Positions 6,229 to 55,930 of a stretch of DNA of 64,000 bases are shown here, piece by piece. Position 1 is the first letter of the stretch, and each line of letters begins with the position of its first letter. Below the pieces are notes generated by a model. That model saw only the letters and a program-made list of their open reading frames with translations. It ran no database searches and was not told the DNA's origin. This DNA comes from Buttiauxella sp. A111 (GTDB lineage Bacteria; Pseudomonadota; Gammaproteobacteria; Enterobacterales; Enterobacteriaceae): assembly GCF_014189855.1 (NCBI RefSeq), contig NZ_BJFN01000001.1, positions 1,054,001 to 1,118,000 on the forward strand. The letters run 5' to 3'. A program made the position numbers and the translations under genes.

Positions 6229-6726
<498 letters not shown>

Positions 6727-6796
6727 TTAGCTCCTGTTGCGCAGGAATGAACCTGCGAAAAAAATATCCTTCTTTATATGCGTAACGGCAGGGATT

Positions 6797-7252
6797 TTAC
6801 AAATCATCCAGAAAAGTTTTATCCAACTGCTTGAACGCACGTTTCAAAACATCTGCCAGCGCCTGGTAGTCTGGCTTGCCTTCAATAGGCGCTAACGCCT
6901 GCCCTGCTTCCTGCAGTTTGCCGCGTACTTCGTAGAACCAACTGAGAATGGATGGCGGGAGTGGCGTCACAGAGCGTTTACCTAACCACCATAATCCCTG
7001 CATCGGCAGACTACAGGCGAATAAAGCCGTCGCAACGGCGGGGCCAAGTTGGCCGCCAAGTGCAATTTGCCAGGTCAGCGTAAACACAGCGAGTGGAGGC
7101 ATAAAGCGGATGGCAAAACGCGTGGCGCGGATCACTCGATTTTCTACAAAGATAGGCGCGAGGCGTTTATCAACAGGCCAGGTCTTTGAATAGTGTTGCC
7201 CACGGCTGAACATACTGAACCAGCTTGCGTGGCTATTTTTGGGGATAGACAT
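6797..7252 (-). CDS. yfbV: YfbV, UPF0208 membrane protein (Ter macrodomain insulation)
   Basis: 151-residue inner-membrane protein with two predicted transmembrane helices (around residues 45-90), beginning [12 protein letters not shown]. In E. coli YfbV is linked to insulation of the Ter macrodomain from flanking chromosome. Same neighbourhood as in E. coli: divergent from ackA, upstream of yfbU. Confidence 0.92.
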
Positions 7253-7588
7253 GGCTTTACCTCAACTTCACATATAAAAAATAAAATTTTTGTGCAAAAC
7301 AACAACTCTAAATTACATGGTTCAAAATATTTTGTCTTTAACTACCGCAATCAGGTATCCTGTGCCGGCCTTGATGGCCGTAGATGGGAAACCGCAGGTT
7401 GTCAATTTTTTGCTCAGTTTGTTATTGCCGAAAAATCACGCAATATACCGAAAACTTTAGAGTATTTATTCGCTATGCCAAAAAAACACTTCTGGCATGA
7501 CGTTAATCATAAATGTCAGGCTCATCATGCGCTACGCTGAGAGACTAAATGACGTTTTTTTAGCCACATATTAATAGTAGGTACTTCC
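7253..7588. other. yfbV-ackA divergent intergenic region
   Basis: 336 bp that must hold the yfbV and ackA promoters. It is AT-rich with no gene-like frame. I did not find a convincing FNR, ArcA or CRP site by eye. Confidence 0.5.
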
Positions 7589-8791
7589 ATGTCGAATAAG
7601 TTAGTACTGGTTCTGAACTGCGGTAGCTCATCACTGAAATTCGCAATTATCGATGCTGTAAACGGTGACGAGTACCTCTCTGGTTTAGCCGAGTGTTTCC
7701 ATCTTCCTGAAGCGCGTATCAAGTGGAAAATGGATGGCAGTAAACAAGAAGCAGCTTTAGGTGCAGGCGCCGCTCACAGCGAAGCTCTTAACTTTATGGT
7801 TAATACCATTCTGGCACAAAAACCTGAATTGTCCGAGCAACTGACTGCTATCGGCCACCGTGTTGTGCACGGCGGCGAGAAGTACACCGGCTCTGTCGTT
7901 ATCGACGAGACTGTGATTCAGGGTATCAAAGATTCCGCATCTTTTGCACCGCTGCATAACCCAGCGCACCTGATCGGTATCGCGGAAGCACTGAAATCTT
8001 TCCCTAAACTGGCTGATAAAAACGTTGCTGTGTTTGACACTGCATTCCATCAGACCATGCCAGAAGAATCCTATCTCTATGCTCTGCCGTACAAACTGTA
8101 CAAAGAGCACGGCGTTCGTCGCTACGGCGCACACGGCACCAGCCACTACTATGTGACTCAAGAAGCCGCGAAAATGCTGAACAAGCCAGTAGAAGAACTG
8201 AACGTGATCACTTGCCACCTGGGCAACGGCGGTTCCGTTTCTGCTATTCGTAACGGCAAGTGTGTTGACACCTCTATGGGTCTGACTCCACTGGAAGGTC
8301 TGGTCATGGGCACCCGTTCCGGTGACATCGACCCAGCAATTATCTTCCACCTGCACGACTCTCTGGGCATGAGCGTTGATGACATCAACAAAATGCTGAC
8401 CAAAGAATCTGGCCTGTTGGGTCTGACTGAAGTCACCAGCGACTGCCGTTATGTTGAAGACAACTACACCACCAAAGAAGACGCTAAGCGTGCGATGGAT
8501 GTGTTCTGTCACCGCCTGGCGAAATACATCGGTTCTTACACTGCACTGATGGACGGTCGTCTGGACGCAGTGGTGTTCACTGGTGGTATCGGCGAAAACG
8601 CAGCAATGGTACGTGAACTGTCTCTGGGCAAACTGGGTGTTCTGGGCTTTGAAGTTGACCACGAACGCAACCTGGCTGCGCGCTTTGGTAAATCAGGCTT
8701 CATCAACAAAGAGGGTACCCGTCTTGCGGTGGTCATTCCGACCAACGAAGAACTGGTTATCGCTCAGGATGCATCTCGCCTGACCGCTTGA
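7589..8791 (+). CDS. ackA: Acetate kinase AckA
   Basis: 400-residue acetate kinase (ASKHA fold) interconverting acetyl phosphate plus ADP with acetate plus ATP; second step of overflow acetate formation. Visible motifs are N-terminal [11 protein letters not shown] (phosphate 1 loop), [20 protein letters not shown], the [11 protein letters not shown] nucleotide-binding loop and the adenosine motif FTGGIGENA. Full family length. It is followed by a hairpin and an ERIC element, then pta, which makes its acetyl-phosphate substrate. Confidence 0.98.
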
Positions 8792-11637: not shown

Positions 11638-12027
11638 ATGAAGAACAGCAGCAATATCACGAGAATTTGTGTCGTCTGTTCACCCAGTTTTTCGAGGTGC
11701 TTTAACCCTTTCATGATACAAAGTAACGCCCTCTCTCATGTTATCGTTGATGAGAACGAGTACATCTCTTCATTACGAAAACAAGTAGAAATCCTTGTTC
11801 TGCAGTGGTTAGTTGAGAGAGACAATACCTATGCAGATGCAACAGAAATCAAGGATCAGGGGTTCGATATCATCATCGTCATTCCTGGTTTGAAATTACT
11901 ATTTGCGCGAAGAGAATTTGATAAGAGAAAAATAATTCATCTGGATTACTTTAGTTACGCCACACAAAATGTAAATGTAGCAATCAGCAAAATAAAAGAA
12001 GCTATTGACGAGAGCGAAACATCGTAG
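11638..12027 (+). CDS. Hypothetical protein, possibly a divergent Lac-type PTS EIIB-like fold
   Basis: 129-residue protein with a good ribosome binding site (AGGAAGAGG). I do not recognise it with certainty. Its layout, an N-terminal strand ending in CSPSFSR (about residues 15-21), a later strand GFDIIIVIPGLKLLF, then KIIHLDYFSYAT and a C-terminal helix NVNVAISKIKEAI, resembles lactose/chitobiose-type PTS EIIB proteins, in which a cysteine in CSAGMST is phosphorylated. The middle part is longer than in ChbB. No EIIA or EIIC partner is adjacent. AT-rich like its neighbour; the function is unknown. Confidence 0.6.
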   Translation: MKNSSNITRICVVCSPSFSRCFNPFMIQSNALSHVIVDENEYISSLRKQVEILVLQWLVERDNTYADATEIKDQGFDIIIVIPGLKLLFARREFDKRKIIHLDYFSYATQNVNVAISKIKEAIDESETS

Positions 12028-12101
12028 CGTTATTTTAAATATTGGCAAATAAACCAAGCAAAAAAATATTTTGACGATTAACGGATTGTATATTTTTCCA
12101 C

Positions 12102-12142
12102 ATTTCCCTCACCCCGGCATTTATATCCGGGCTGGGGGAAAT
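12102..12142. repeat. Palindromic 3'-end repeat next to yfcD
   Basis: TTTCCC..CCCGG and CCGGG..GGGAAA arms around a short AT loop. It overlaps the region between the islet gene ending at 12027 and the yfcD stop, which are convergent. Probably a 3'-end hairpin related to the CCCTCACCC family. Confidence 0.55.
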
Positions 12143-12154
12143 ATCACAAATGAA

Positions 12155-12697
12155 TTACTCCGCAGCTACGTGCTGAGATTCATTTTTGGCGTTGCGGGTC
12201 ATCCACAACGCCAGCGCTTTTAAAGAGTCTGGAGTGAAGTCATCACAACGAGCGGTAATCTCTTCTGGGGACATCCAGCAGACTTCGCTTACCTCTGCCT
12301 CTTGCAAAGCAAATGGGCCATGAGAAACGCAACTAAACAGGCTTCCCCACACCCGGCAATTGGCATCTTCAAAATAGAACTGACCATGCTCGGCAAAAGG
12401 TACCCCAGCGATACCCAGCTCTTCTTCAGCTTCGCGACGTGCAGAGTCGAGTAATTGCTCATCGGCCTGAACAACTCCGCCAGCGGTGGCATCCAACATA
12501 CCCGGCATAAAATCTTTCGTTTCAGTGCGGCGCTGCACCAAAATTTTACCCATTCCGTCATGCACAACAATATAAGTCGCACGATGTCGCAAACGCTGCG
12601 CGCGCATTTGTTCACGGCTTGCTTGCGCGATTACTTCATTGTCTTCATTGACAATGTCTATCCATTCCGTGCCAACAAAATGACTCTGTTCCACCAT
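12155..12697 (-). CDS. yfcD: Nudix hydrolase YfcD
   Basis: 180-residue Nudix-family protein. The Nudix box is clear: [24 protein letters not shown] pattern, written as G-x5-E-x7-REAEEELG at about residues 69-91, so it should hydrolyse a nucleoside diphosphate linked to another group; the physiological substrate is not established. Related by sequence to isopentenyl-diphosphate isomerase type 1. Same order as in E. coli with yfcE upstream. Confidence 0.93.
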
Positions 12698-12753
12698 CGG
12701 GGAAACCTTATTCAGGGCGCTCTAATGGCGCGTTATGTTCAACAAGCGGTAAG

Positions 12754-13305
12754 TTACGGGGTAATCTCGACCTGTGCAATAACCCCATCGTTATTCAGTG
12801 CGTGAACGCTCAGAACACCATCGTTTAACATGCCGTAGCTCGGTTCGAATCCGCCTTTGGGTATACTCACCGAGCCTGGATTGAACAGATAAACCGTATC
12901 TTGTTTTTCAGCTAATGGTAGATGAGTGTGGCCAAAAACCAGCACGTCATTTTCTGCCAGCGGAGGCAGTTTGTCAGGATTATACAAATGACCATGCGTA
13001 ACAAATAAACGCTGTTCAGCCATTAAAATCTGTTGCCAGGGAGCGGTAATCGGAAAATGTAGCAGCATCTGATCAACTTCGCTGTCACAGTTCCCGCGTA
13101 CTGCAATAATTTTATCCGCAATGCTGTTAAACCGCTCCGCAACCGCTCCAGGATTATAGCCTGCCGGTAATGCATTACGCGGTCCGTGATTCAACACGTC
13201 CCCCAATAATATCAGCCATTTAGCGCCGCTACGTTCAAAGTGCGACAGCACCTGCTCCGTAGCGGGTAGAGAACCATGAATATCCGAGGCAAACATCAGC
13301 TTCAT
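12754..13305 (-). CDS. yfcE: Metallophosphodiesterase YfcE
   Basis: 183-residue calcineurin-like phosphodiesterase active on artificial phosphodiesters in E. coli. The metal-binding motifs appear in order: SDIHGS (residues 7-12), GDVLNHGP (36-43), RGNCDSE (GNxD, 75-81), THGH (about 106-109) and FGHTH (about 125-129). Length as in E. coli. Lies 56 nt upstream of yfcD, probably the same transcript. Confidence 0.94.
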   Translation of the reverse strand: MKLMFASDIHGSLPATEQVLSHFERSGAKWLILLGDVLNHGPRNALPAGYNPGAVAERFNSIADKIIAVRGNCDSEVDQMLLHFPITAPWQQILMAEQRLFVTHGHLYNPDKLPPLAENDVLVFGHTHLPLAEKQDTVYLFNPGSVSIPKGGFEPSYGMLNDGVLSVHALNNDGVIAQVEITP

Positions 13306-13361
13306 AAAACCGCATTCCTGTTAATGGTAAGCGAAATGATCATACCGAATTATGCTGTTAG

Positions 13362-14033
<672 letters not shown>

Positions 14034-14157: not shown

Positions 14158-14787
14158 ATGATCGACCTTTACTATGCACCCACACCAAACGGCCACAAAA
14201 TCACGCTGTTTTTGGAAGAGGTGGGTCTGGATTACAGTATTCACCGTATTGATATTGGCAAAGGAGATCAGTTTCAGCCTGCCTTTTTGGCGATTTCCCC
14301 CAACAATAAAATACCCGCGATTATCGACCACAACCCAGCCGATGGCGGCGGCCCGTTGAGCTTATTTGAATCAGGTGAAATCTTGCTTTATCTGGCTGAG
14401 AAGACCAACGAGCTATTAAGTAAAGATCTGCGTGAACGCGCCCACACCCTGCAATGGCTGTTCTGGCAAGTCGGTGGTTTTGGTCCGATGCTGGGGCAGA
14501 ATCATCACTTTAACCACTTCGCGCCGCAGCCGGTGCCGTATGCGATAGAACGCTATCAAGTGGAAACTCAGCGTTTGTATGGCGTGTTAAACAAACAATT
14601 AGAGAAAACCCCGTGGTTGGGCGGCAATGAGTACAGCATTGCTGATATTGCGACTTACCCGTGGACGGTATCGCATGAACGCCAGCGCATTAATCTGGCG
14701 AATTTCCCGGCCGTCGAGAACTGGTTTGAACGTATCCGCTCGCGCCCGGCGACAGAACGCGCATATCAGCAAGCGCAAAAAAGTTAA
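14158..14787 (+). CDS. yfcG: GST-like disulfide-bond oxidoreductase YfcG
   Basis: 209-residue GST-fold protein with glutathione-dependent disulfide reductase activity in E. coli. The N-terminal domain has [15 protein letters not shown] (glutathione site Thr/Asn), NNKIPAI with the cis-proline, and [12 protein letters not shown]; the helical domain contains [21 protein letters not shown], a signature of the YfcG/YghU class. The C-terminus is slightly shorter than in E. coli (215). Confidence 0.94.
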
Positions 14788-14867
14788 AGCCAATGCGCCC
14801 GCTATGGGCGCAATGTTTTTCCTCATGTATTCTGTGGCTGAAAACTAATACAAGGAAGAAACCTGCA

Positions 14868-15230
14868 ATGTCATCCGCAATTATTCGAATCAAAAACTTA
14901 CGCCTGCGCACCTTCATTGGCATCAAAGAAGAAGAAATTGCCAATCGCCAGGATATCGTCGTTAACGTTGCGATTCATTATCCGGCGGACAAAGCTCGCG
15001 CCAGTGAAGACATCAACGATGCGTTGAACTATCGCACGATAACTAAACAAATCATCCAGTTGGTTGAGAATAATCGTTTCTCATTGCTGGAAAAATTAAC
15101 TCAGGATGTGCTCGATATCGCATGCGACCATCCGTGGGTGTCTTATGCTGAAGTAGAAATAGATAAACTTCACGCGCTGCGTTATGCCGATTCCGTTTCC
15201 ATGACGATGAGTTGGCGTCGCCAGGCGTAA
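14868..15230 (+). CDS. folX: Dihydroneopterin triphosphate 2'-epimerase FolX
   Basis: 120-residue tunnelling-fold enzyme, a paralogue of dihydroneopterin aldolase, that epimerises dihydroneopterin triphosphate to dihydromonapterin triphosphate in the tetrahydromonapterin pathway. The conserved [20 protein letters not shown]-terminus and [14 protein letters not shown] segment are present. The ATG at 14868 follows AAGGAAG; the open frame extends upstream but without family similarity. Confidence 0.95.
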
Positions 15231-15246
15231 AAAGCGGGAGACGGCC

Positions 15247-16140
15247 ATGCAGATACTGATTACCGGCGGAACAGGATTGATTGGTAGCCATCTGGTGCCA
15301 CGATTGCTGGAGTTAGGGCACGATGTCACCGTCGTCACCCGAAGCCCCGAGAAAGCCCGGGCGAAACTCAGCCCAAAAGTCACACTATGGAAAGGGTTGA
15401 GCGATCATCCCAATCTTGATGGATTTGATGCTGTCATCAATCTGGCAGGTGAGCCAATTGCCGATAAACGCTGGACCGAGGCGCAAAAGCAACGGCTGTG
15501 CACCAGCCGCTGGCAAATCACCGAACGTCTGGTCGAGATGTTTAAAGCAAGCCAAACACCGCCCTCCGTGCTTATCTCTGGCTCCGCTGCGGGCTATTAC
15601 GGCGACCTCGGAGAAGTGGTCGTCAACGAAGATGAGCCACCCCACAATGAATTTACCCATAAACTGTGCGCCCGCTGGGAGCAAATCGCCTGTGGCGCGC
15701 AGAGCGAGCAGACGCGCGTCTGCCTGCTGCGTACCGGCGTGGTCCTGGCGCCGAAAGGCGGAATTCTGGCAAAGTTATTGCCGATATTTCGCTTAGGCCT
15801 GGGTGGCCCTATGGGCGATGGTCGGCAGTATCTGGCTTGGATTCATATCGACGATATGGTTAACGGTATTCTGTGGCTGCTCAATAACGATCTGAGTGGA
15901 CCTTTCAATATGGTTTCGCCTTACCCGGTACGAAACGAACAGTTCTCTCACGCGCTGGGCCACGCGTTAAATCGCCCGGCCTTTATGCGCGCTCCTGCAA
16001 CGGCGGTGAGAATGATGATGGGGGAATCTTCGGTATTGGTATTAGGCGGGCAACGAGCGCTACCAAAACGACTTGAAGAATCGGGATTTGGTTTCCGTTG
16101 GTATGACCTTGAGGAAGCACTGGGAGATGTGGTGCGGTAA
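15247..16140 (+). CDS. yfcH: SDR-like epimerase-family protein YfcH
   Basis: 297-residue atypical short-chain dehydrogenase/epimerase. The N-terminal Rossmann motif [10 protein letters not shown] binds NAD(P), SGSAAGYYG is the modified active site region typical of the YfcH/SulA-like family, and the C-terminal DUF1731-type region ends the protein. The reaction is not known. It begins 16 nt after folX, so the two are almost certainly co-transcribed. Confidence 0.93.
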
Positions 16141-47258: not shown

Positions 47259-47346
47259 TGTAACAGATCAGCCCCTACTATTCGCGCTCCTGTTACGGTG
47301 TGTAACAATGTTTGTATAAAAATAAATCTATTATGAGGTTTTGGTC

Positions 47347-48669
47347 ATGAGCCAGAAAAACCTGTTTACAAAGTCAGCCCTCGCGGTTGCAGTGGCAATA
47401 GTCTCATCGCAGGCGTACTCGGCCGGCTTTCAATTAAACGAGTTCTCTTCCTCAGGCCTAGGCCGAGCTTATTCCGGGGAAGGCGCAATCGCAGACGATG
47501 CGGGTAACGTCAGCCGTAACCCGGCGTTAATCACCATGTTTGACCGCCCAACCTTCTCTGGCGGTGCGGTGTTTATTGACCCGGATGTGAATATTGCTGG
47601 CACATCCCCAACGGGCCGTAGCACTGATGCTAATAACATCGCGCCGACCGCCTGGGTTCCAAACTTCCACTTTGTTGCACCCATTAATGAACAATTTGGT
47701 TGGGGAGCATCTGTTACATCTAACTACGGTTTAGCAACAGAATTTACTGACGATTACACCGCAGGCTCAATGGGCGGCAAAACCGACCTGACGACGATGA
47801 ACCTGAACCTGAGCGGTGCATATCGTTTAAACAGCAACTGGAGCTTTGGTCTTGGCTTTGATGCTGTTTACGCTAAAGCGAAAATCGAGCGTTACGCAGG
47901 TGATCTTGGTCAAATTGTCGCAGGCTCTGGTGCATTGCCTCCTTCCCTGGCAGGCCCTGTTTCCCGCATTCCTTCCGACACTCAAATCGCGCACCTGAAA
48001 GGTGATGAGTGGGGTTACGGTTGGAACGCCGGTATCCTTTATGAAATCAATAAAGATAACCGCTACAGCTTAACCTACCGTTCCGAAATCAAAATCGACT
48101 TCGACGGCGACTATAAGAGCAATTTACCTTCCGCTTACAACCCGTTGTTGTCTAAATTTGGCTTACCTGCAGGTACCAATGGGCAAACCGTTCCAGGTTC
48201 TCTGACCCTGAACTTGCCAGAAATGTGGGAACTGTCCGGTTATAACAAAGTTGATCCACAGTGGGCGATTCACTACAGCATTGCTTACACCAGCTGGAGT
48301 CAGTTCCAGGAGCTGAAAGCAACTGGCAGCAACGGCCAGACCCTGTTCTATAAAGATGAAAGCTTTAAAGATGCGTACCGTATTGCTTTAGGTACCACCT
48401 ACTATATGGATAAGAACTGGACCTTCCGTACTGGTATCGCATTTGACGATAGCCCGGTTCCTGGGGATCACCGTTCCATTTCTATCCCGGATCAGGACCG
48501 CTTCTGGCTGAGTGCAGGTACCACTTACGCCTTTAACGAAGATGCGTCTGTCGATGTGGGTGTCTCCTACATGCACGGCCAGCACGTTGAGTTCAAAGAA
48601 GGTCCCTATACCTTCCAGTCTGATGGTAAAGCGTGGCTGTACGGCATGAACTTTAACTATGCATTCTGA
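47347..48669 (+). CDS. fadL: Outer-membrane long-chain fatty acid transporter FadL
   Basis: 440-residue outer-membrane beta-barrel. Signal peptide ends AYS-A, followed by the mature [34 protein letters not shown] region; the NPA motif typical of FadL hatch domains is present, and the C-terminus ends in NYAF (terminal aromatic needed for assembly). ATG at 47347 is 7 nt after GAGG; a TTG two codons earlier is too close to that site. The region around residues 190-210 differs from E. coli, as expected for an exposed loop. Confidence 0.96.
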
Positions 48670-48684: not shown

Positions 48685-48716
48685 AAAAAAGGCGAAACCA
48701 TGGTTTCGCCTTTTTT
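48685..48716 (+). terminator. Rho-independent terminator after fadL
   Basis: Perfect palindrome AAAAAAGGCGAAACCA/TGGTTTCGCCTTTTTT (32 bp) with T-run on the plus strand. Confidence 0.95.
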
Positions 48717-48734
48717 AATGCCCGTAACACAAAT

Positions 48735-48860
48735 ATATACTCTAAATAATTCGAGTTGCAGGAAGGCGGCAAACAAATGAATCCCCAGGAGCTTACTGTA
48801 GTAAGTGACTGGGGTGAATGAGAGCAGCCAACGCACATGCAACTTGAAGTATGACGAATA
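48735..48860 (+). repeat. ERIC element at the left edge of the PTS/glycyl-radical locus
   Basis: About 126-bp plus-oriented ERIC with GAATCCCCAGGAGCTTAC and AAGTGACTGGGGTGAATGAG, and ends TATACTCTAAATAA and TATGACGAATA. Ends 8 bp before the regulator's stop codon. Confidence 0.93.
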
Positions 48861-48867
48861 ATGCCAG

Positions 48868-49560
48868 TTAACGCATCGAAACGGTCGTAACCTCATTAGA
48901 AAGCAACGTTTCCAGGGTGTACTGCGCCATTTGCCCGCTTTGTAAAAACACTTTATGACGAATAGAAAGGCAAATCCGCCCTTCTTGCGTGCGCAGCAGC
49001 CAGGCTTCTTCCTGATTCAGTGCTTTTCCGGAAAGTGTTTTAACATCGTGGCTGATAGCTAACCCGCACGTCCGTTCAATATATTGCAGCACTGAATGGC
49101 TACAATCTTCGCGGGTAAATTCAGGGAAAAGTGAACTCGGCATCCAGGTTTCTTCGATAATCGCGGGTTGCTCATTAATGATGCGCATTCGACGGTAATG
49201 AATCAGCAAACTGCCTGGCGGCTGGGGAAAGTAGTCTGCCAACTCCCCTTCAGCCTGCTGAGTATCAAAAAGTAGCACCACGTTATCCAGTTTCTGGTCG
49301 CTTTGAATGCGTTCAGAAATCGATATCACGCTGTTGTCCTGGTAAAACTCAGGGGGATTCACAAAAATACCGGCCCCCTGCCGGGTATGCACAAAAGATT
49401 CACGCTTGAGTCTGGCAATCGCTTTTTGAATTGTCGGACGGCTAACCTGATAAAACTGTGCCAGAGCGTGTTCACCTTCCAGCGGCGCATAAGGAAGATA
49501 GTTGCCTTTAATTATCTTCTCTTTTAACAAATGATAAATATCGATGTATTTCATGCGCAT
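48868..49560 (-). CDS. GntR/HutC-family (UTRA) transcriptional regulator
   Basis: 230-residue regulator. N-terminal winged helix (about residues 1-70): YIDIYHLLKEKIIKGNY, then LAQFYQVSRPTIQKAIARLKRESFVHTRQGAGIFV, typical GntR recognition. C-terminal UTRA ligand domain (about 90-228; LLIHYRRMRIINEQPAIIEETWM). UTRA domains usually sense a sugar phosphate or similar metabolite. It is downstream of the PTS gene on the same strand, after a hairpin. M1 or M3 (49554) could be the start; the upstream GGA is better spaced for M3. Presumed regulator of the divergent PTS and glycyl-radical genes. Confidence 0.9.
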   Translation of the reverse strand: MRMKYIDIYHLLKEKIIKGNYLPYAPLEGEHALAQFYQVSRPTIQKAIARLKRESFVHTRQGAGIFVNPPEFYQDNSVISISERIQSDQKLDNVVLLFDTQQAEGELADYFPQPPGSLLIHYRRMRIINEQPAIIEETWMPSSLFPEFTREDCSHSVLQYIERTCGLAISHDVKTLSGKALNQEEAWLLRTQEGRICLSIRHKVFLQSGQMAQYTLETLLSNEVTTVSMR

Positions 49561-49581
49561 TCCGGGGAATAAAGCTCGTAA

Positions 49582-49604
49582 CGGAGCCTGAGAATAAGGC
49601 TCCG
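49582..49604 (-). terminator. Hairpin between PTS and regulator genes
   Basis: CGGAGCC/GGCTCCG stem with a nine-base loop between the EIIABC stop and the regulator start; no T-run. May reduce read-through into the regulator. Confidence 0.6.
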
Positions 49605-49622
49605 CCGTCGCCAGATTGACTT

Positions 49623-51533
49623 TCAGGCGACATCCATAACCGCGTGTTGACGGTTGCGCATCATTTTAAAACGTTTCAGGGCAATAGCAATCGTCGCGGT
49701 AGAAACCACACCGGCAGCCATTGCAACCAGCGCCAACAACGGCTTGTCGAATCCGCCCAGCAGGACAATGATTGGCCCGCCATGTGCCACGTTACAATGC
49801 AGACTAAAGATGAAGCCCAGACAGCAAGCTACCGCAGAGCCAATCATGTTTGCAGGGATCACAGCAAAGGGATCACGCGCGGCAAAAGGAATCGCGCCTT
49901 CAGAAATCCCTACCAACCCCATCGCGGCAGCGGCTTTGCCATTCTCATATTCTTCATCATCAAACAGCCCAAAGCGTCTGCCCATAAATGCAGCCAGCGC
50001 CATGCCTAAAGGTGCAACAGGAATCGCCACAGCCTGAGCCCCCATAAACTGCGTTTGCCCTTGGGCAATCAACCCCACGCTGAACATAAACACGACTTTA
50101 CCGAATGGTCCGCCCATATCGAACCCCTGCATCAACCCCATCACAATACCGATAACGATAACGTTGCCTGTAGAGAGATTCGCCAGCATGTGGTTAAGCG
50201 CCGTCATCAAATCAGCAATGGGAGCGCCAATGACAAACATAAAGATTGCAGCGATAAACAGCGTACCGGCGATGGGTGCAATCATAATGGGCACCAACGG
50301 CTGGACCATTTTTGAGTAGTTAAAATGCGTCAACCATTTCACGAAGTAGCCGACGAGCAGCCCCGCAACAATGGCACCAATAAATCCGGTGCCTGCACTG
50401 GCATCGTAGAAAGAACCATTGTTCGCAATCCAGCCGCCAATCAATCCAGGAGCCAACCCCGGCCGGTCAGCAATAGCATAGGCAATGTAACCAGATAGAA
50501 TCGGGATCATCAGCGTAAAGCCAACCACGCCAACGCTCAGTACTTTGTTCCACAAGCTATCAACAGGAATACTTAGCCCCTGCTCGGTCGGTACCCCACC
50601 CAATGCCAGGGATAACGCAATTAACAAACCGCCGACCACCACAAAGGGGATCATGTATGACACCCCGTTCATCAGTGACTTATACAGCATTGAACCTGAC
50701 GAAGTCGTCGAAGCCGGTTTTGCCTTACTGCTGCTTGCCACCTGGTAGAGCGGTGCCGAAAGCGCTTGTTCAATTAAGCCTGTAGCGCCTTTAATCGCCG
50801 ATTTCACACCGCAGATAACCACTTTCTTTCCGGCAAAACGGTCGAGATCGACTTGCTTATCACAAGCCACCACCACCGCATCTGCCCGGGCAATTTCTTC
50901 AGCTGTGGGTGAATCCTTAACGCCAATAGAGCCGTTGGTCTCCACTTTCACTTCATAACCCATCTCTCTGGCGGCTTTAACGATAGCTTCCGCAGCCAGG
51001 TAAGTGTGCGCCACGCCAACCGGACAGCCGGTGACGCCAAGAATCAACCCCTTATCCTGCCTGACTTCTCGGTTGTCATCTTCGGGCGAGGCTTGCGCCG
51101 TGAACAACGCTAACACTTCCTCCTGTGAGGTTGCCTGTAATAGCGTTTCCATAAAGCCGTCTTCGATAAGACGTGAGGAGAGCTGGGCAAGGATCTCGAT
51201 ATGCAAATTGGACGCGTTATGCGGAGAAGCGATCATCAAGAAAACGTGCGAGGGCTTTCCATCTTCAGCACCATATTCAATCCCTTGTGGGCTGATCCCC
51301 ACGACGACTGCGGCCTGTTTCACCACCGGGCTTTTAGCATGCGGGATAGCCACACCGCCTTCAAATCCGGTATTTCCCGTATCTTCACGATCCCAAACAT
51401 CCGCGACAAATTGTGAAATATCAGTGATATGGCCCGCCTGCCACAGTAATTCAGCCATCTCGTGGAAGACCTGATGTTTTTCGCGGGCGTTCAGATTCAA
51501 GCAGATAAGCTCTTTGCTTAATAAGCCATTCAT
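49623..51533 (-). CDS. Fructose-type PTS permease, fused EIIA-EIIB-EIIC
   Basis: 636-residue fused permease that would phosphorylate its substrate during uptake. EIIA (about 1-150): phosphorylated His65 in GGVAIPHAK. EIIB (about 160-265): phosphocysteine Cys170 in GVTGCPVGVAHTY. Linker rich in Ser/Ala/Lys, then EIIC (about 285-625) with multiple transmembrane helices, NNGSFYDASAGTGFIGAIVAG and GISEGAIPFAARDP. Related to FrwB/FrvB- and MngA-class fructose/mannitol-type PTS; sugar specificity cannot be read from sequence. Divergent from the glycyl radical enzyme, whose substrate it probably supplies in phosphorylated form. Confidence 0.92.
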   Translation of the reverse strand: MNGLLSKELICLNLNAREKHQVFHEMAELLWQAGHITDISQFVADVWDREDTGNTGFEGGVAIPHAKSPVVKQAAVVVGISPQGIEYGAEDGKPSHVFLMIASPHNASNLHIEILAQLSSRLIEDGFMETLLQATSQEEVLALFTAQASPEDDNREVRQDKGLILGVTGCPVGVAHTYLAAEAIVKAAREMGYEVKVETNGSIGVKDSPTAEEIARADAVVVACDKQVDLDRFAGKKVVICGVKSAIKGATGLIEQALSAPLYQVASSSKAKPASTTSSGSMLYKSLMNGVSYMIPFVVVGGLLIALSLALGGVPTEQGLSIPVDSLWNKVLSVGVVGFTLMIPILSGYIAYAIADRPGLAPGLIGGWIANNGSFYDASAGTGFIGAIVAGLLVGYFVKWLTHFNYSKMVQPLVPIMIAPIAGTLFIAAIFMFVIGAPIADLMTALNHMLANLSTGNVIVIGIVMGLMQGFDMGGPFGKVVFMFSVGLIAQGQTQFMGAQAVAIPVAPLGMALAAFMGRRFGLFDDEEYENGKAAAAMGLVGISEGAIPFAARDPFAVIPANMIGSAVACCLGFIFSLHCNVAHGGPIIVLLGGFDKPLLALVAMAAGVVSTATIAIALKRFKMMRNRQHAVMDVA

Positions 51534-51551
51534 TTCTTTTCCCTCACAAAT

Positions 51552-51563
51552 ATGTAATTACAA
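51552..51563. promoter_or_regulatory. TGTAATTACA palindrome, PTS side
   Basis: ATGTAATTACAA, whose perfect ten-base core repeats at 51731-51740. It lies about 20 bp upstream of the PTS start. Spacing and duplication suggest the operator of the local GntR-family regulator. Confidence 0.65.
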
Positions 51564-51649
51564 GTTTGGAGAAAAATAGAAACAATCACGATCGCGGGTA
51601 TTGATAAAAATCATATAAACCGTGTGATGACGCCCCCTTCACCAAGAGG

Positions 51650-51665
51650 TGTGAAGGCAATCACA
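51650..51665. promoter_or_regulatory. CRP site in the PTS/glycyl-radical divergent region
   Basis: TGTGA-AGGCAA-TCACA, both half-sites exact. It lies about midway between the divergent starts, so one CRP dimer could serve either promoter. Confidence 0.8.
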
Positions 51666-51729
51666 AAGGGATCCATGTGTAAATTATCGGGCATGTGATG
51701 AAAGTAAGATCCCGATCTCAGTTTTAAAT

Positions 51730-51741
51730 TTGTAATTACAA
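51730..51741. promoter_or_regulatory. TTGTAATTACAA palindrome, glycyl-radical side
   Basis: Perfect 12-bp palindrome 38 bp before the ATG of the glycyl radical enzyme; same core as the element at 51553-51562. Confidence 0.68.
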
Positions 51742-51779
51742 CTTAATAATAGAAACCCAGAAATCAGTAAGGAAAAATT

Positions 51780-54065
51780 ATGAGCGCTCCCGTTATCGCC
51801 GAGCAGGTTGACGTCAACAAGAAGATCCCCTGCGAGAAAACGCCTGTCGAACAACTTGCTGTTATGGAGGCCTACACTCTGGCGCATCGCAGCGAAAGCT
51901 CGCCGTTAATACGTGAAGTAAAATGCCTGCAAGCCTTGTATCCAACCCTCTTTCGCAGTATTCAACCGGAAGACAAAATCATTGGTCGCCTGGATGTACT
52001 GCCGATTGGATTTGGTTGCGTCACGTCCGTTGGCGGTGTGGGGCATTACTGTAACTTCAGCAAACTGGCAGAATTTAAATCCTCGCTCCCTGAAGGTCTT
52101 CATCACCGAATTGATGCCCTGCTTGATTACTGGCACACCCATGACACGCGATCGATCTACTTCCGCCAAACGCTCAAAGACGACACGCTGGGCAAATTTG
52201 TCGATGTTAATTATCCGGCGATTGCCACAGCCCGCCTTAGCGGCATGTACCTTGACTACAATTTGCTGATTGATCTTGGGCTGACAGGCTTAAGAGAGAA
52301 AATCCAGCACAAGCTTGATGCGGCCATTGCGCGTGAGGATGAGCAGACAATCACGCTTCATCAAGCGTTCCTCGGTATGTTGAGCATTGTCGTCACCGTG
52401 ATTGACCGCCATATCCAACTCGCGGCAAACGAACTGGAAACCACGCCAGACCTGGCACGCAAACAACATCTTTCCACTTTAATTGATGCACTCATGCACA
52501 TCCGCACGCAGAAACCAGAAACCTTCCTGCAAGGTATTCAACTGAGCTGGCTGTATAGCCTGTGTGCCGGTGTGGTGAACTACGGGCGCATGGATGACTA
52601 TCTGGGTGCACTATTGGTCCATGATTTAAACGCCGGGTTGCTTACTGAAAGGGAAGCGATTGATTATATTCGTTCCCATTACCGACTCATTGAAGCACGT
52701 AAAACCACGGTCAATGGTCGTGTCATTGTTGGCGGTCGCGGGCGTCGTCAACCGGAACATGCCGATGTTTACTGCCGCCTCGCCATTCAGGCTGTGCAGG
52801 AAAACCAGGATACAGAACCCCAGTTCACCTTGCGTATTTACCAGGGAATGAACCCAGCCATTTATCAGCAAGCATTGGACGTGATTGGCACCGGTATCAC
52901 CTACCCGATTTTGTATAACGACGATGTCAATATTCCGGCAGTCATGCACTCCATGCAGGTTAGCGAGGAAGATGCAGAGCAGTACGTGCCCTTTGGCTGT
53001 GGTGAGTTTGTGCTGTCGGGGCGCAGCGTGGGTACGCCAAATACCTGCATGAACGTGCTGAAAATTCTCAATATTGCGTTGACCGGCGGCATCGACTTTT
53101 GGGATGGGAAAAACAAAAGTGGCGGTGTGGTGCTGAAAACACCACAACAAATCAGCAGCTTTGACGATGTGATGAGCAACTATAAAAACCTGCTCAACTA
53201 CTACATCGCCATCACCGCAAAAGCCCAGGCCTCTTCGTATAGAGTAATGAATCAACAGGTCGGTTTTCTGCTGACCAGTTTGCTCACCAGTGATTGCATT
53301 GAGCGGGAAAAAACATTGCTTAACGGTGGCGCTTATCGTCTTGGCGGCACCAACGAAACTTACGGGAATACCAACGCCTCAGACTCCCTTGCTGCCATTA
53401 AAAAAGTCATCTTTGAGCAGCAAAAGTACGATTACGCCACGCTGATTGAAGCGCTAAAAGTGGATTTTGTTGACCATGAAAAAATGCGCAACGACCTGAT
53501 TAACGCGCCAAAATTCGGTAACGATGACGGCTACGCTGACGAAATTGCCGTAGAGATGCACGAGTATATTTGCAATGGCGTACGTGATGCCGCGCAGCAG
53601 GTTGGGCTCGACAGCTACCTTGTGGTGATTATCAATAATCAGGTTAATACCGAGTGGGGCCGAGCCACCAGCGCGTCAGCAGACGGTCGTCAATGTGGCG
53701 TTTACATGAGTAATGCCAACAACCCGCAAAGTGGTGCCGATAAAAATGGCCCAACAGCCATGCTGAATTCATTGGTGAAACTGGACGCTAAGTATCACGC
53801 CGGTTCAGTGCAAAACATCAAGTTCAGCAAAACTTTGTTTAATACCCGTCGCCCGCTGGTCAATGCGTTAATGGAAGGCTACTTCGAGCAAGGTGGGCCG
53901 CAACTCATGGTGAGCGTGGTGGGCAAAGGCGAGCTGGAAGCGGCTTATCAGCATCCGGAAAACTATCCCAACCTGATAGTTCGGGTCGGTGGGTTTAGTG
54001 CCCGCTTTGTGAACTTAGACCGTGATGTACAACTGGAGATCCTTAACCGTACGCTGAACGATTAA
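51780..54065 (+). CDS. Glycyl radical enzyme (PFL/dehydratase superfamily), substrate unknown
   Basis: 761-residue member of the pyruvate formate-lyase/glycerol-dehydratase superfamily. The glycyl radical loop is near the C-terminus: RVGGFSARF with Arg735 and radical Gly738. The thiyl-radical Cys is Cys407 in PFGCGEFVLSGRS, followed by Glu409, the general base position of dehydratase-type members. The motif reads GCGE instead of the usual GCVE(P), and it lacks the double Cys of true PFL, so it should not be pyruvate formate-lyase. Strong ribosome binding site (AAGGAAAA). Followed by its activase; divergent PTS suggests a phosphorylated sugar, sugar alcohol or anhydro-sugar substrate. The product route is not encoded nearby. 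Confidence 0.93.
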   Translation: MSAPVIAEQVDVNKKIPCEKTPVEQLAVMEAYTLAHRSESSPLIREVKCLQALYPTLFRSIQPEDKIIGRLDVLPIGFGCVTSVGGVGHYCNFSKLAEFKSSLPEGLHHRIDALLDYWHTHDTRSIYFRQTLKDDTLGKFVDVNYPAIATARLSGMYLDYNLLIDLGLTGLREKIQHKLDAAIAREDEQTITLHQAFLGMLSIVVTVIDRHIQLAANELETTPDLARKQHLSTLIDALMHIRTQKPETFLQGIQLSWLYSLCAGVVNYGRMDDYLGALLVHDLNAGLLTEREAIDYIRSHYRLIEARKTTVNGRVIVGGRGRRQPEHADVYCRLAIQAVQENQDTEPQFTLRIYQGMNPAIYQQALDVIGTGITYPILYNDDVNIPAVMHSMQVSEEDAEQYVPFGCGEFVLSGRSVGTPNTCMNVLKILNIALTGGIDFWDGKNKSGGVVLKTPQQISSFDDVMSNYKNLLNYYIAITAKAQASSYRVMNQQVGFLLTSLLTSDCIEREKTLLNGGAYRLGGTNETYGNTNASDSLAAIKKVIFEQQKYDYATLIEALKVDFVDHEKMRNDLINAPKFGNDDGYADEIAVEMHEYICNGVRDAAQQVGLDSYLVVIINNQVNTEWGRATSASADGRQCGVYMSNANNPQSGADKNGPTAMLNSLVKLDAKYHAGSVQNIKFSKTLFNTRRPLVNALMEGYFEQGGPQLMVSVVGKGELEAAYQHPENYPNLIVRVGGFSARFVNLDRDVQLEILNRTLND

Positions 54066-54088
54066 TGCCAAATACCAGGGAAATCATC

Positions 54089-54988
54089 ATGAAAACAACA
54101 GGCATCGTCTTTGATATTCAGAAGTTTTGCATCAATGACGGCCCCGGCGTGCGAACCACCGTGTTTCTCAAAGGCTGCCAAATGCGCTGCCTTTGGTGCC
54201 ACAACCCGGAATCGATGAGCCAGCGCAAGCAACTGTCGTTCAATGCAGATAAATGCCTGAACTGCCAGGCGTGCGCCCAGGTCTGTGCTCACCATCGCTT
54301 TGTCGATGGGATACACCAAATCGATTTCGCTGCTTGTGATGGCTGTGGAAAGTGCGTTGAGGTATGCCCGGCACAGGCGCTGAAAATCTACGGTGAAGAG
54401 GTCACTGCTGAGCAGATTGTTCAGGAAGTGCTGAAAGATAAAATCTATTTTGCTAAAACCGGTGGAGGGATAACCCTCTCCGGTGGCGAAGCGCTTCATC
54501 AGTTTACTTTCGCACTGGAACTTGCCCGCCTTAGCAAGCAGGCAGGTTTGCATGTATGCCTGGAAACCAATGGCGCATCAAAAAGCGAGCATTATCAGCA
54601 AATCGCCCCTTTTGTGGATTGCTTCCTGGTGGATTACAAAGCCACAGGCGACAAACTGCACAAAACCCTGACCGGTTTAAGCCGTCGGCTGGTAGACCAA
54701 AATATGGCGCTGTTACATCAGCTCGGTTGTCCTGTGATTCTGCGATGCCCGTTAATCCCAGGCTATAACCTGAGTCTTGAACATTTTCAGGCAATAGGCG
54801 AAATGGTAGAGCGTTTTGACAACATCTTGCATGTCGAGATCCTGCCCTATCATAATTTTGGTGCCCGAAAAGCGCGTGAAATTGGCGAGATTTATACGGT
54901 AGATAGTGAAATGCCAGATGAGGCGACGATTCAACTTTGGATTACGGCGCTGAGTCGCAACGGTAAAATCAAAGTGGTTCATGCCTGA
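54089..54988 (+). CDS. Glycyl-radical enzyme activating enzyme (radical SAM)
   Basis: 299-residue radical SAM activase. The SAM cluster motif is CQMRCLWC: Cys30, Cys34, Cys37. A ferredoxin-like insert (about 48-100) has two further CxxCxxC...C sets (KCLNCQACAQVC and ACDGCGKCVEVCP), typical for activases of dehydratase-type glycyl radical enzymes and absent from PflA. GGGITLSGGEALHQ binds SAM. The ATG at 54089 follows AGGG; an ATG at 54065 overlapping the previous stop adds eight residues but has no ribosome binding site. Confidence 0.94.
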   Translation: MKTTGIVFDIQKFCINDGPGVRTTVFLKGCQMRCLWCHNPESMSQRKQLSFNADKCLNCQACAQVCAHHRFVDGIHQIDFAACDGCGKCVEVCPAQALKIYGEEVTAEQIVQEVLKDKIYFAKTGGGITLSGGEALHQFTFALELARLSKQAGLHVCLETNGASKSEHYQQIAPFVDCFLVDYKATGDKLHKTLTGLSRRLVDQNMALLHQLGCPVILRCPLIPGYNLSLEHFQAIGEMVERFDNILHVEILPYHNFGARKAREIGEIYTVDSEMPDEATIQLWITALSRNGKIKVVHA

Positions 54989-55002: not shown

Positions 55003-55036
55003 AATGCCGCTCATTGAGGCTTCAATGAACGGCATT
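55003..55036 (+). terminator. Terminator after the activase
   Basis: Long stem AATGCCG(C)TCATTGA/TCAATGA(A)CGGCATT, with AAACTTTAT after it. Closes the glycyl-radical operon just before the ERIC. Confidence 0.75.
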
Positions 55037-55042
55037 AAACTT

Positions 55043-55168
55043 TATACCCTAAATAATTCGAGTTGCTTGAAGGCGGCAAAGCCGTAAATCCCCAGGAGCT
55101 TACTCCAGTAAGTGACTGGGGTGAGCGGGTGCAGCCAACGCATAAGCAACTTGAAGAATGACGGGTAT
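55043..55168 (+). repeat. ERIC element at the right edge of the PTS/glycyl-radical locus
   Basis: 126-bp plus-oriented ERIC: TATACCCTAAATAATTCGAG at the left, AATCCCCAGGAGCTTACTCC and AGTAAGTGACTGGGGTGAGC in the centre, GAATGACGGGTAT at the right. Same orientation as the ERIC at 48735. Confidence 0.94.
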
Positions 55169-55171
55169 CGC

Positions 55172-55930
55172 TTACTGAGAGTCGATATCTTTCAAATCAT
55201 CCTGAATAGACTCGGCATTCGGGTTCTCTTGTGGAGTGAGTTTCCCGCCGTTTGCCTGGAAATCATGGCGTTGGAAGTAAGCTTCACGCACCAAAATATA
55301 CGGGTCTGAAGATTGTTTCAGCAAGCCTTCAGAATCCAGCAATTGCGCACGCGTTTCGATACCTTCCAGCGTCCATTTGCCCAGTGACATCCACCAGGTT
55401 AGCCAGGAAAGTGGGGCATACAAATCGTCTACTAACTCACCACCATCTTCACGAAGCGTGAAGCTACCGTAGGCAGGTAAATGCACATATGGACCATAGC
55501 CCACGCCATAATGCCCAAGTGTGGTACCAAAACGGTTTGGCTCAAGACGTTGTAATTTCTGATTTGCCATCCCTGCCACATCAATGAAACCACCCATACC
55601 CAATAAGCTATTCAGGAAGAAACGGGTGAAATGCACCATCCCCTGATACGGGTCGCCCTGGATAAAGTTGTTCACCATAGAAGCAGGTTCTTCTAGGTTA
55701 CTGGTGAAGTTGCTCAGCCCATTACGTGCCGGTTGCGGTACGTAATCACGCCACACCACAGCAACCGGGCGCACAACATACGGATCCAACACATTGAAGT
55801 TGAAATCGTACATAGCGCGGTTGAACCCTTCCAGCGGGTCCGAACGCCCTTGCGGTTGTGTATCGGCCGAACTCGCACAGCCCACTAAAACAGTAGCGGC
55901 CAGTACTAACCCGGTCAGGCGGAAATTCAT
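55172..55930 (-). CDS. mlaA: Outer-membrane lipoprotein MlaA
   Basis: 252-residue lipoprotein (VacJ) of the Mla pathway, which removes misplaced phospholipids from the outer leaflet with porin partners and MlaC. Lipobox LVGC with Cys18; conserved DPLEGFNRAMYDFNFNVLDPYVVRPVA and GMGGFIDVAGMAN channel-gating segment. In E. coli it follows fadL/yfdF and precedes yfdC; here other genes are present on both sides. Confidence 0.96.
   Translation of the reverse strand: MNFRLTGLVLAATVLVGCASSADTQPQGRSDPLEGFNRAMYDFNFNVLDPYVVRPVAVVWRDYVPQPARNGLSNFTSNLEEPASMVNNFIQGDPYQGMVHFTRFFLNSLLGMGGFIDVAGMANQKLQRLEPNRFGTTLGHYGVGYGPYVHLPAYGSFTLREDGGELVDDLYAPLSWLTWWMSLGKWTLEGIETRAQLLDSEGLLKQSSDPYILVREAYFQRHDFQANGGKLTPQENPNAESIQDDLKDIDSQ

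Follow-up and report, generated by a model that had tools for sequence, protein, structure and literature searches.

A PTS-linked glycyl radical enzyme cassette inserted between fadL and mlaA in Buttiauxella sp. A111 and the sugar phosphate it may break

Which compound is broken down by a glycyl radical enzyme (GRE) that is encoded beside a sugar permease, in a genome that holds four other enzymes of the same superfamily (loci L133, L134, L135 and L136)? The question is raised by a four-gene cassette at positions 48868-54988 of a 64,000-nucleotide stretch of the genome of Buttiauxella sp. A111 (contig NZ_BJFN01000001.1), the whole of which is called here the window. Several GRE families exposed unsuspected anaerobic pathways once their substrates had been found, as exemplified by YbiW and PflD in the accessible part of PMC12441222. 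The cassette enzyme, by its sequence, is a member of a family other than these two; the family is widespread, no described function for it was found in the open-licence literature searched by titles and abstract starts, and it may reveal a breakdown route not yet known. Four points are firm: the existence of the family, that of the cassette, the insertion, and the catalytic layout of the enzyme. The four genes together appear to import a sugar-like compound as its phosphate, which the GRE would then break without oxygen.

The cassette consists of four intact open reading frames (ORFs) in two divergent pairs, with all Pfam domains over their cut-offs, which bears out the arrangement given in a preliminary description of this DNA. 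On the minus strand lie a GntR/UTRA regulator of 230 residues (48868..49560; Pfam GntR and UTRA) and a fused EIIABC permease of the phosphotransferase system (PTS), of the fructose family and 636 residues long (49623..51533), whose PTS_EIIA_2, PTS_IIB and PTS_EIIC domains span residues 4-145, 167-254 and 288-565 of a single chain. On the plus strand follow the GRE of 761 residues (51780..54065; Pfam PFL-like and Gly_radical) and its radical SAM activase of 307 residues (54065..54988; Pfam Radical_SAM and Fer4), for which an alternative start at 54089 is possible. The permease exceeds the cut-offs of the fructose-family domain models of NCBIfam, its best equivalog being MngA (NF007293) with 392.8 bits against a cut-off of 763. 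The regulator, presumed to be a repressor, stays under all NCBIfam cut-offs, and orthologues 66-73% identical to it adjoin the GRE in nine other Enterobacteriaceae loci. The activase passes TIGR02494 for glycyl-radical enzyme activating proteins (304 bits, cut-off 174) and no equivalog model among the best 25 of the 54 NCBIfam families matched. Since this set of four genes is found again as a group in loci of Citrobacter, Pluralibacter and Vibrio, with different flanks wherever these were read, their grouping is not due to chance.

How did the cassette come to lie here? Its flanking genes, fadL (47341-48669) and mlaA (55172-55930), both named by eye, are adjacent without it in 10/10 genomes of the same genus, some 60-70 bases apart, and the cassette is therefore an insertion, as had been supposed. 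It is flanked by two direct copies of a 143-nucleotide repeat, both on the plus strand (48714..48856 and 55021..55163, the right copy 81% identical to the left); a similar sequence is found upstream of fadL in two same-genus genomes, and recombination at this repeat is a possible route of insertion. The cassettes of Citrobacter (L037, L038) and Pluralibacter (L039) lie between other genes. In nine of the ten same-genus genomes the GRE has matches with an E-value of at most 1e-50, at about 31% identity throughout; the tenth has none. Close members were found in 10 of 392 Enterobacteriaceae genomes, this one included, and in 7 of 148 Vibrio genomes; a survey of Bacillota for more members returned one genome in 398, which was the query centre itself, and no DNA match was found in E. 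coli genomes. The family as a whole extends to Enterobacteriaceae, Vibrio, Bacillota and Bacteroidota, among others.

The GRE has everything that defines the eliminase layout of its superfamily: both domains, a thiyl motif Cys407-Gly-Glu409 with the glutamate two positions after the cysteine, a C-terminal motif RVGGFSARF that holds Gly738, and an adjacent activase. Cys407, Glu409 and Gly738 are kept in 97/97 aligned family members. An AlphaFold2 (AF2) model (pLDDT 86.7, pTM 0.88) has the fold of GREs, with at most 26% identity to solved structures in structural alignment. No NCBIfam cut-off is reached. The enzyme scores 292.6 bits against the 678.2 required by TIGR01774 (PFL2/3 subfamily), a model passed by the PflD of the same genome and by GREs of the loci L071, L047 and L060. 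It falls equally below the cut-offs for HypD (249 against 1100 bits), CutC (246/1050), HpsG (230/1000), HpfG (214/1000), indoleacetate decarboxylase (203/1100) and HPAD (163/1150). That it might be a pyruvate formate-lyase (PFL) paralogue, as automatic annotation may label it from its PFL-like Pfam domain, is hardly credible, and a PFL function was rejected on its 84 bits against a cut-off of 994. The glycerol/propanediol dehydratases 1r8w and 5i2a share 24-25% identity over 716-717 residues, too little to count as close, and no model for these dehydratases is among the NCBIfam matches of the enzyme.

YbiW and PflD are both present in this genome. The cassette GRE is 28.0% identical to the former over 697 residues and 27.7% to the latter over 599; on the PflD model NF007437 (PRK09983; cut-off 1109) it scores 208.4 bits, against 1611 for the resident PflD. 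In a quick-search tree of 42 rows its family separates from YbiW, PflD, three CutC-like GREs (a label given by eye) and two PFL-type GREs. The close clustering with a characterised enzyme that, according to the preliminary description, would have meant an already described system was thus not seen, and the candidacy of the enzyme as a YbiW or PflD orthologue was rejected on its scores, its identity of about 28% and its separate branch. The family also has a residue pattern that neither enzyme shows in full: Arg152, Asn267, Arg314, Arg322, Glu526, Tyr528, Asn619 and Asn620 are invariant in the 97 aligned members. At position 307, Arg is found in 90 of them and Lys in 7. YbiW carries a Lys at 314 but lacks all the remaining residues. 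A phosphate-binding arginine specific to members with PTS or ROK genes was also sought and rejected, only Arg59 having stood out.

The loci were gathered by plasmid search, genome-contig scan and whole-genome searches, which gave 100, of which 95 are non-redundant, five duplicates having been taken out before neighbours were counted; those from the contig scan are the best 80 of at least 234 relatives, and the counts are thus not a random sample. Among the 92 sources made up of the window and L034-L124, three (L062, L087, L113) yielded no GRE ORF that satisfied the filter. By their best BLAST matches among the tree members, the 95 loci fall into clade I (26: the window, Citrobacter, Pluralibacter, Vibrio, Maledivibacter and some Erysipelotrichaceae), clade II (60: Bacteroidales, Clostridia, Enterococcus, the genome G215 and others) and a divergent group D (9: Persicobacter, the second copy of Clostridium lacusfryxellense and seven Bacteroidota genomes).

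What stands beside the enzyme differs from clade to clade. Within 6 kb, and counted for clade I / clade II / group D out of 26 / 60 / 9, an activase is nearly constant (26 / 57 / 8), and proteins like the regulator and the PTS of the window are typical of clade I (UTRA 24 / 1 / 0; PTS 19 / 2 / 0). NanE-type epimerases (2 / 49 / 0) and ROK proteins (1 / 24 / 0) are mostly found in clade II. Less frequent are ManA or the PMI-like family c34 (6 / 2 / 0), Gfo/Idh proteins of one kind (4 / 9 / 1), PhyH (3 / 0 / 1) and a propeller protein (3 / 0 / 1), GH94-like proteins (0 / 9 / 0), GH92 (0 / 0 / 6), and aldolases of the DeoC family (5 / 3 / 0), LacD-like (0 / 1 / 0) and Fsa (1 / 1 / 0) types. The UTRA, PTS and Gfo/Idh counts refer to proteins like the queries used, not to whole superfamilies, and absences partly reflect under-sampling, as at least 4 kb could be read on both sides in 74/95 loci. 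From these clade-wise counts, a kinase or PTS step and an enzyme related to mannose or to 2-epimers recur through unrelated families; aldolases are present as well. The preliminary description had noted the lack of any dehydrogenase, aldolase or microcompartment gene; this holds among the four genes of the cassette, yet genes of these kinds lie close by in some relatives, and two fructose-6-phosphate aldolases are encoded elsewhere in this genome.

The GRE-linked NanE proteins, mostly from clade II, retain in 45/45 cluster sequences of at least 225 residues all six catalytic residues named for NanE in the available text of PMC8482478. Residues around the catalytic lysine differ (Trp/Tyr75, Trp78), and since in 8/27 surveyed genomes the linked protein is an extra copy beside a higher-scoring NanE, on both grounds it probably acts on an altered substrate; three of the 45, from Erysipelotrichaceae, appear canonical at other positions. 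NanE as a general partner of the GRE was rejected, clade I having it in 2/26 loci and two GRE-bearing Vibrio genomes carrying none over the cut-off. In one Vibrio locus, L219, the neighbourhood includes a protein (14434-16104) in which an N-acylglucosamine 2-epimerase-type domain is fused to a cupin glucose-6-phosphate isomerase domain, and a protein of 590-603 residues, whose sole match is a sub-threshold one to phosphomannose isomerase, is divergent from the GRE both there (11707-13479) and in an Erysipelotrichaceae locus (L094:3799-5610), the two being 48% identical.

Another line of evidence comes from the region between the divergent pairs. The palindrome TTGTAATTACAA at 51730..51741, upstream of the GRE, is the sole exact copy in the genome, and a one-mismatch copy, ATGTAATTACAA, lies 178 bases away at 51552..51563. 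Among the loci read, those of Citrobacter, Pluralibacter, G117 and G215 carry the same palindrome in front of the GRE. The claim that the locus is self-contained is supported by this single exact copy, which is not proof of it, as six one-mismatch places occur elsewhere in the genome (a reversed control pattern gives 16). In Maledivibacter, of the Bacillota, a variant AACTTGTAATTACAAGTT lies upstream of the GRE, in an AT-rich locus where two mismatches allow 11 matches against 5.2 expected. The Vibrio loci lack TTGTAATTACAA and carry instead sites like TTTGTAAATACAAA, which precede the GRE in 7/7 loci of one set and 5/5 of another (two overlapping the earlier set; the site of L219 has two mismatches), precede the PTS in L216, L218 and L220, and in L045, L051 and L216 lie in the gap that separates the divergent genes for PhyH and the propeller. 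Genome-wide, with up to one mismatch, the matches that fall at the GRE locus are 3/4 in the Vibrio genome G421, 3/3 in G426, 3/7 in G1310, 2/4 in G423 and 2/3 in G422, a control pattern giving 0-4 matches for each strand of each genome; the five matches of G1312 all lie away from the GRE, one at the PhyH/propeller pair and two in a cluster with another UTRA gene. In G215, one exact and one one-mismatch site precede the GRE, and one-mismatch sites at 14318 and 14501 of its locus L043 precede a LacD-like aldolase and an EIIBC gene; when up to two mismatches are allowed there are five sites where 1.15 would be expected, a number reached in 1/200 shuffles. The conservation of this operator-like palindrome suggests that the regulon is local.

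The PhyH/propeller pair controlled, perhaps, by these sites in Vibrio brings an aerobic element into the picture. Members of the PhyH family are Fe/2-oxoglutarate dioxygenases, and the match of the propeller to the PAL structure 3fvz takes in the DGY, PH and R stretches, which we take to have catalytic roles. Both proteins are also near the GRE in Persicobacter (L035), and in Vibrio G1312 the pair lies with a UTRA gene about 22 kb from it, among Gfo/Idh, ABC and GH13-like genes (labels partly by eye). It is possible that the pair provides an oxygen-dependent route for the same or a related compound.

Several observations around these genes stand apart. In L079 (13254-15509) and eight other clade II loci, a GH94-like family of 750 residues lies near the GRE operon; it has no NCBIfam match and no PDB match from a single sequence, shows weak similarity to cellobiose phosphorylase by profile, and is perhaps a phosphorylase or hydrolase. 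The Bacteroidota loci L202-L207 combine a divergent GRE with GH92, Gfo/Idh, aldo-keto reductase and AraC-like genes, mostly also with SMP-30-like, IUNH and solute-binding protein genes, and in some cases with PhyH (labels partly by eye). Clostridium lacusfryxellense has two family members, the second and divergent one at L201:8700-10895, around which 20 kb were read without any ORF being labelled as an activase. In Epulopiscium (L117), a second GRE (6330-8660), about 26-27% identical over most of its length to both the window GRE and YbiW, lies in the same gene cluster as a clade II GRE and is followed by dehydrogenase-, FGGY-kinase-, GldA- and DeoC-like genes (labels partly by eye). A mobilizable plasmid of Moraxella osloensis (L168:4393-8951) carries, between Tn3 transposase genes, yet another GRE with an activase and a propeller of the same family; this GRE is about 30% identical to PflD and YbiW and under every NCBIfam cut-off shown. 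The second L117 enzyme and that of Moraxella come next to the family in the tree, where both may be misplaced; their branches, like that of the second GRE of L060, are long.

What, then, is the substrate? A phosphorylated sugar type is likely because a PTS is linked to the GRE, so that this part of the earlier proposal stands; its choice of a sugar alcohol or anhydro-sugar finds a context that cuts both ways. We give a probability of about 0.35 to the reading in which the cassette is an inducible anaerobic catabolic system whose GRE releases a hexose-6-phosphate. The UTRA protein would bind TTGTAATTACAA until displaced by a sugar phosphate; EIIABC would import a hexose derivative and phosphorylate it, probably at C6; and the activase would install the glycyl radical at Gly738. 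The Cys407 thiyl might then take a hydrogen from a hydroxyl-bearing carbon, Glu409 the proton of that hydroxyl, and a bond on the neighbouring carbon would break, presumably C-O and less likely C-N. The preferred leaving group would be a mannose-configured hexose-6-phosphate joined by an ether or glycosidic link to a small partner that may be carboxylated; mannosylglycerate would be an example of such a substrate. The freed phosphate could pass through ManA to fructose-6-phosphate, leaving the partner as an aldehyde or ketone, and in some Vibrio the PhyH dioxygenase and PAL-like propeller, behind the same operator-like motif, would perhaps do an equivalent job in air. The recurrent mannose-6-phosphate-type isomerases and 2-epimerases and the dioxygenase/PAL-like pair favour such a release. 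Direct entry of the product into central metabolism, proposed earlier by inference, fits the nearby isomerases, and glycolysis is its most likely destination. The fuller version, in which hydrogen abstraction splits the hexose-6-phosphate from its ether- or glycoside-bound partner and some Vibrio add an aerobic dioxygenase/PAL-like twin under one operator, is rather improbable as a whole; if true, such an aerobic and anaerobic pair for one bond would, to our knowledge, be new for a GRE.

A number of points weigh against hexose-6-phosphate release. A mannoside could be cut by a plain glycosidase, and recourse to radical chemistry would be surprising for anything but a non-glycosidic bond. The conserved arginines are placed by alignment rather than located in the pocket by coordinates, and PflD shares part of the pattern, having Lys at 152, Arg at 314 and no other residue of the set; the binding of the UTRA protein to the palindrome is likewise a prediction. 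NanE marks clade II and not the clade of the window, where both cases (2/26) are probably canonical. A ManA match exists in each of the 27 genomes tested, and in 26 it exceeds the cut-off, so a local ManA or NanE fills no gap, and the idea of either as a stand-in for a missing ManA was rejected. PhyH and propeller genes are near the GRE in three Vibrio loci, 3/26 of clade I only; the propeller profile finds NHL proteins best in the PDB and PAL 3fvz only fifth, and its family occurs in 45/395 Bacteroidota genomes, mostly with other neighbours in the 20 regions read. A released hexose-6-phosphate needs neither the LacD-like aldolase that follows operator-like sites in G215 nor the DeoC-family genes within 6 kb of 8/95 loci, both of which therefore count against it, and a YbiW system adjoins the family GRE in L047 and a PflD system in L071.

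These last observations are those expected of a third anhydrohexitol-6-phosphate lyase, a possible though doubtful alternative. Here the PTS would import a 1,5-anhydrohexitol or 1,5-anhydrofructose derivative and the GRE would open its ring to a 1-deoxyketose-6-phosphate, which a class I aldolase, Fsa in this genome and a LacD-like one in G215, would split into hydroxyacetone and glyceraldehyde-3-phosphate; the Vibrio PhyH would hydroxylate C1 of anhydromannitol phosphate, yielding mannose-6-phosphate for ManA. The first step is that of YbiW and PflD, which cleave 1,5-anhydroglucitol-6-phosphate and 1,5-anhydromannitol-6-phosphate according to the accessible part of PMC12441222, with which the titles of PDB entries 8id7 and 8id0 agree; the earlier link of both enzymes to anhydro-hexitol phosphates is thereby confirmed. 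The enzyme beside the family GRE in L047 is of YbiW type (71% identical to the resident YbiW) and that in L071 a PflD (57%, over the PRK09983 cut-off), each with an Fsa, and L060 has a neighbour 37% identical to YbiW. The fructose family of the cassette PTS also agrees with this alternative, as does the Gfo/Idh gene within 6 kb of 14/95 loci, 1,5-anhydrofructose reductase being of that superfamily; this protein, however, scores higher against 2ho5/4iq0 (158 bits) than against anhydrofructose reductase (51-52 bits). Against it stand also the 28% identity, the absence from both YbiW and PflD of Asn267, Arg307, Arg322, Glu526, Tyr528, Asn619 and Asn620, the presence of both known lyases in this genome, and the NanE-type epimerases of the anaerobic clade II members, which by reasoning would be useless for an anhydrohexitol. 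The mannose side (ManA, c34, NanE-type, the L219 fusion, and GH92 in group D) points to a manno-configured hexose, free or phosphorylated, being formed or consumed; deoxyketose chemistry is what the aldolases speak for, together with the systems adjoining L047 and L071. The two could not be reconciled in one substrate.

Two further proposals seem unlikely. A dehydratase of hexitol- or pentitol-phosphate made by the PTS, the other option of the preliminary description, with a deoxy-sugar phosphate as product, would suit the DeoC-family aldolases and a fold at the level of the diol and glycerol dehydratases, tied with CutC and others, glycerol dehydratase being also the best PDB sequence match (208.7 bits); yet His164 and Asp447 of that enzyme, presumably pocket positions, align with Gly155 and Asn421, hexitol phosphates have dehydrogenase routes, and the 2-epimerase and mannose isomerase neighbours would be left unexplained. 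We hold at equally long odds a CutC-like C-N lyase of an N-substituted amino-sugar phosphate, for which NanE-type epimerases would set C2 and the PAL-like propeller would handle an N-alpha-hydroxy intermediate in air. PAL does act on N-alpha-hydroxy acids, the linked NanE keeps its six catalytic residues and the tyrosine that, in S. aureus NanE, packs against the acetyl group, and there are a GH20 gene near the GRE of Persicobacter and a polysaccharide-deacetylase-type gene about 8 kb from that of L219, both incidental cases; against this count the probably changed substrate of the linked NanE and the two Vibrio genomes without it. Sulfoquinovose was rejected by reasoning only, its C6 not being free for a PTS or ROK kinase. 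Because the GRE is accompanied by a regulator and a permease, by isomerases that recur near it and, in some Vibrio, by a dioxygenase/lyase-like pair, the substrate should be findable by small experiments.

How does the cassette compare with known systems? In Sinorhizobium, the accessible text of PMC12441222 describes an aerobic route from anhydrofructose through anhydromannitol to mannose, whose reductase, oxygenase and mannose product are echoed by the genes of Vibrio L216; unlike the cassette, it is described there with neither PTS nor GRE, and its oxygenase is not identified. The YbiW-FsaA system shares with the cassette a GRE and activase for a sugar-6-phosphate, is also encoded in this genome (L133, where a fructose-6-phosphate aldolase accompanies YbiW) and adjoins a family GRE in Vibrio L047, but the window GRE is 28% identical to YbiW and differs in the family-specific residues, the cassette has no aldolase, and its regulator is of the UTRA type where YbiW has a DeoR-like gene (by eye). 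The PflD-Frw PTS-FsaB-GldA system likewise ties PTS genes to a GRE and is present here (L134, with another such aldolase and, by eye, PTS and GldA-like genes beside PflD; the remaining two resident GREs are PFL-type, by eye), though the window enzyme is 28% identical to PflD, with 208 bits against 1109 for PRK09983. With glycerol/propanediol dehydratase and CutC the GRE has in common the Cys-x-Glu layout and the fold, at 23-25% identity in structural alignment, whereas the cassette is linked to a PTS and has no microcompartment gene among its four. The 2-O-mannosylglycerate operon MngR-MngA-MngB, finally, has a UTRA regulator and an EIIABC permease with the same domain order; MngA is the best-scoring equivalog of the cassette permease, for all its 392.8 bits against 763, and where the cassette has a GRE, the operon has MngB, a hydrolase of family GH38.

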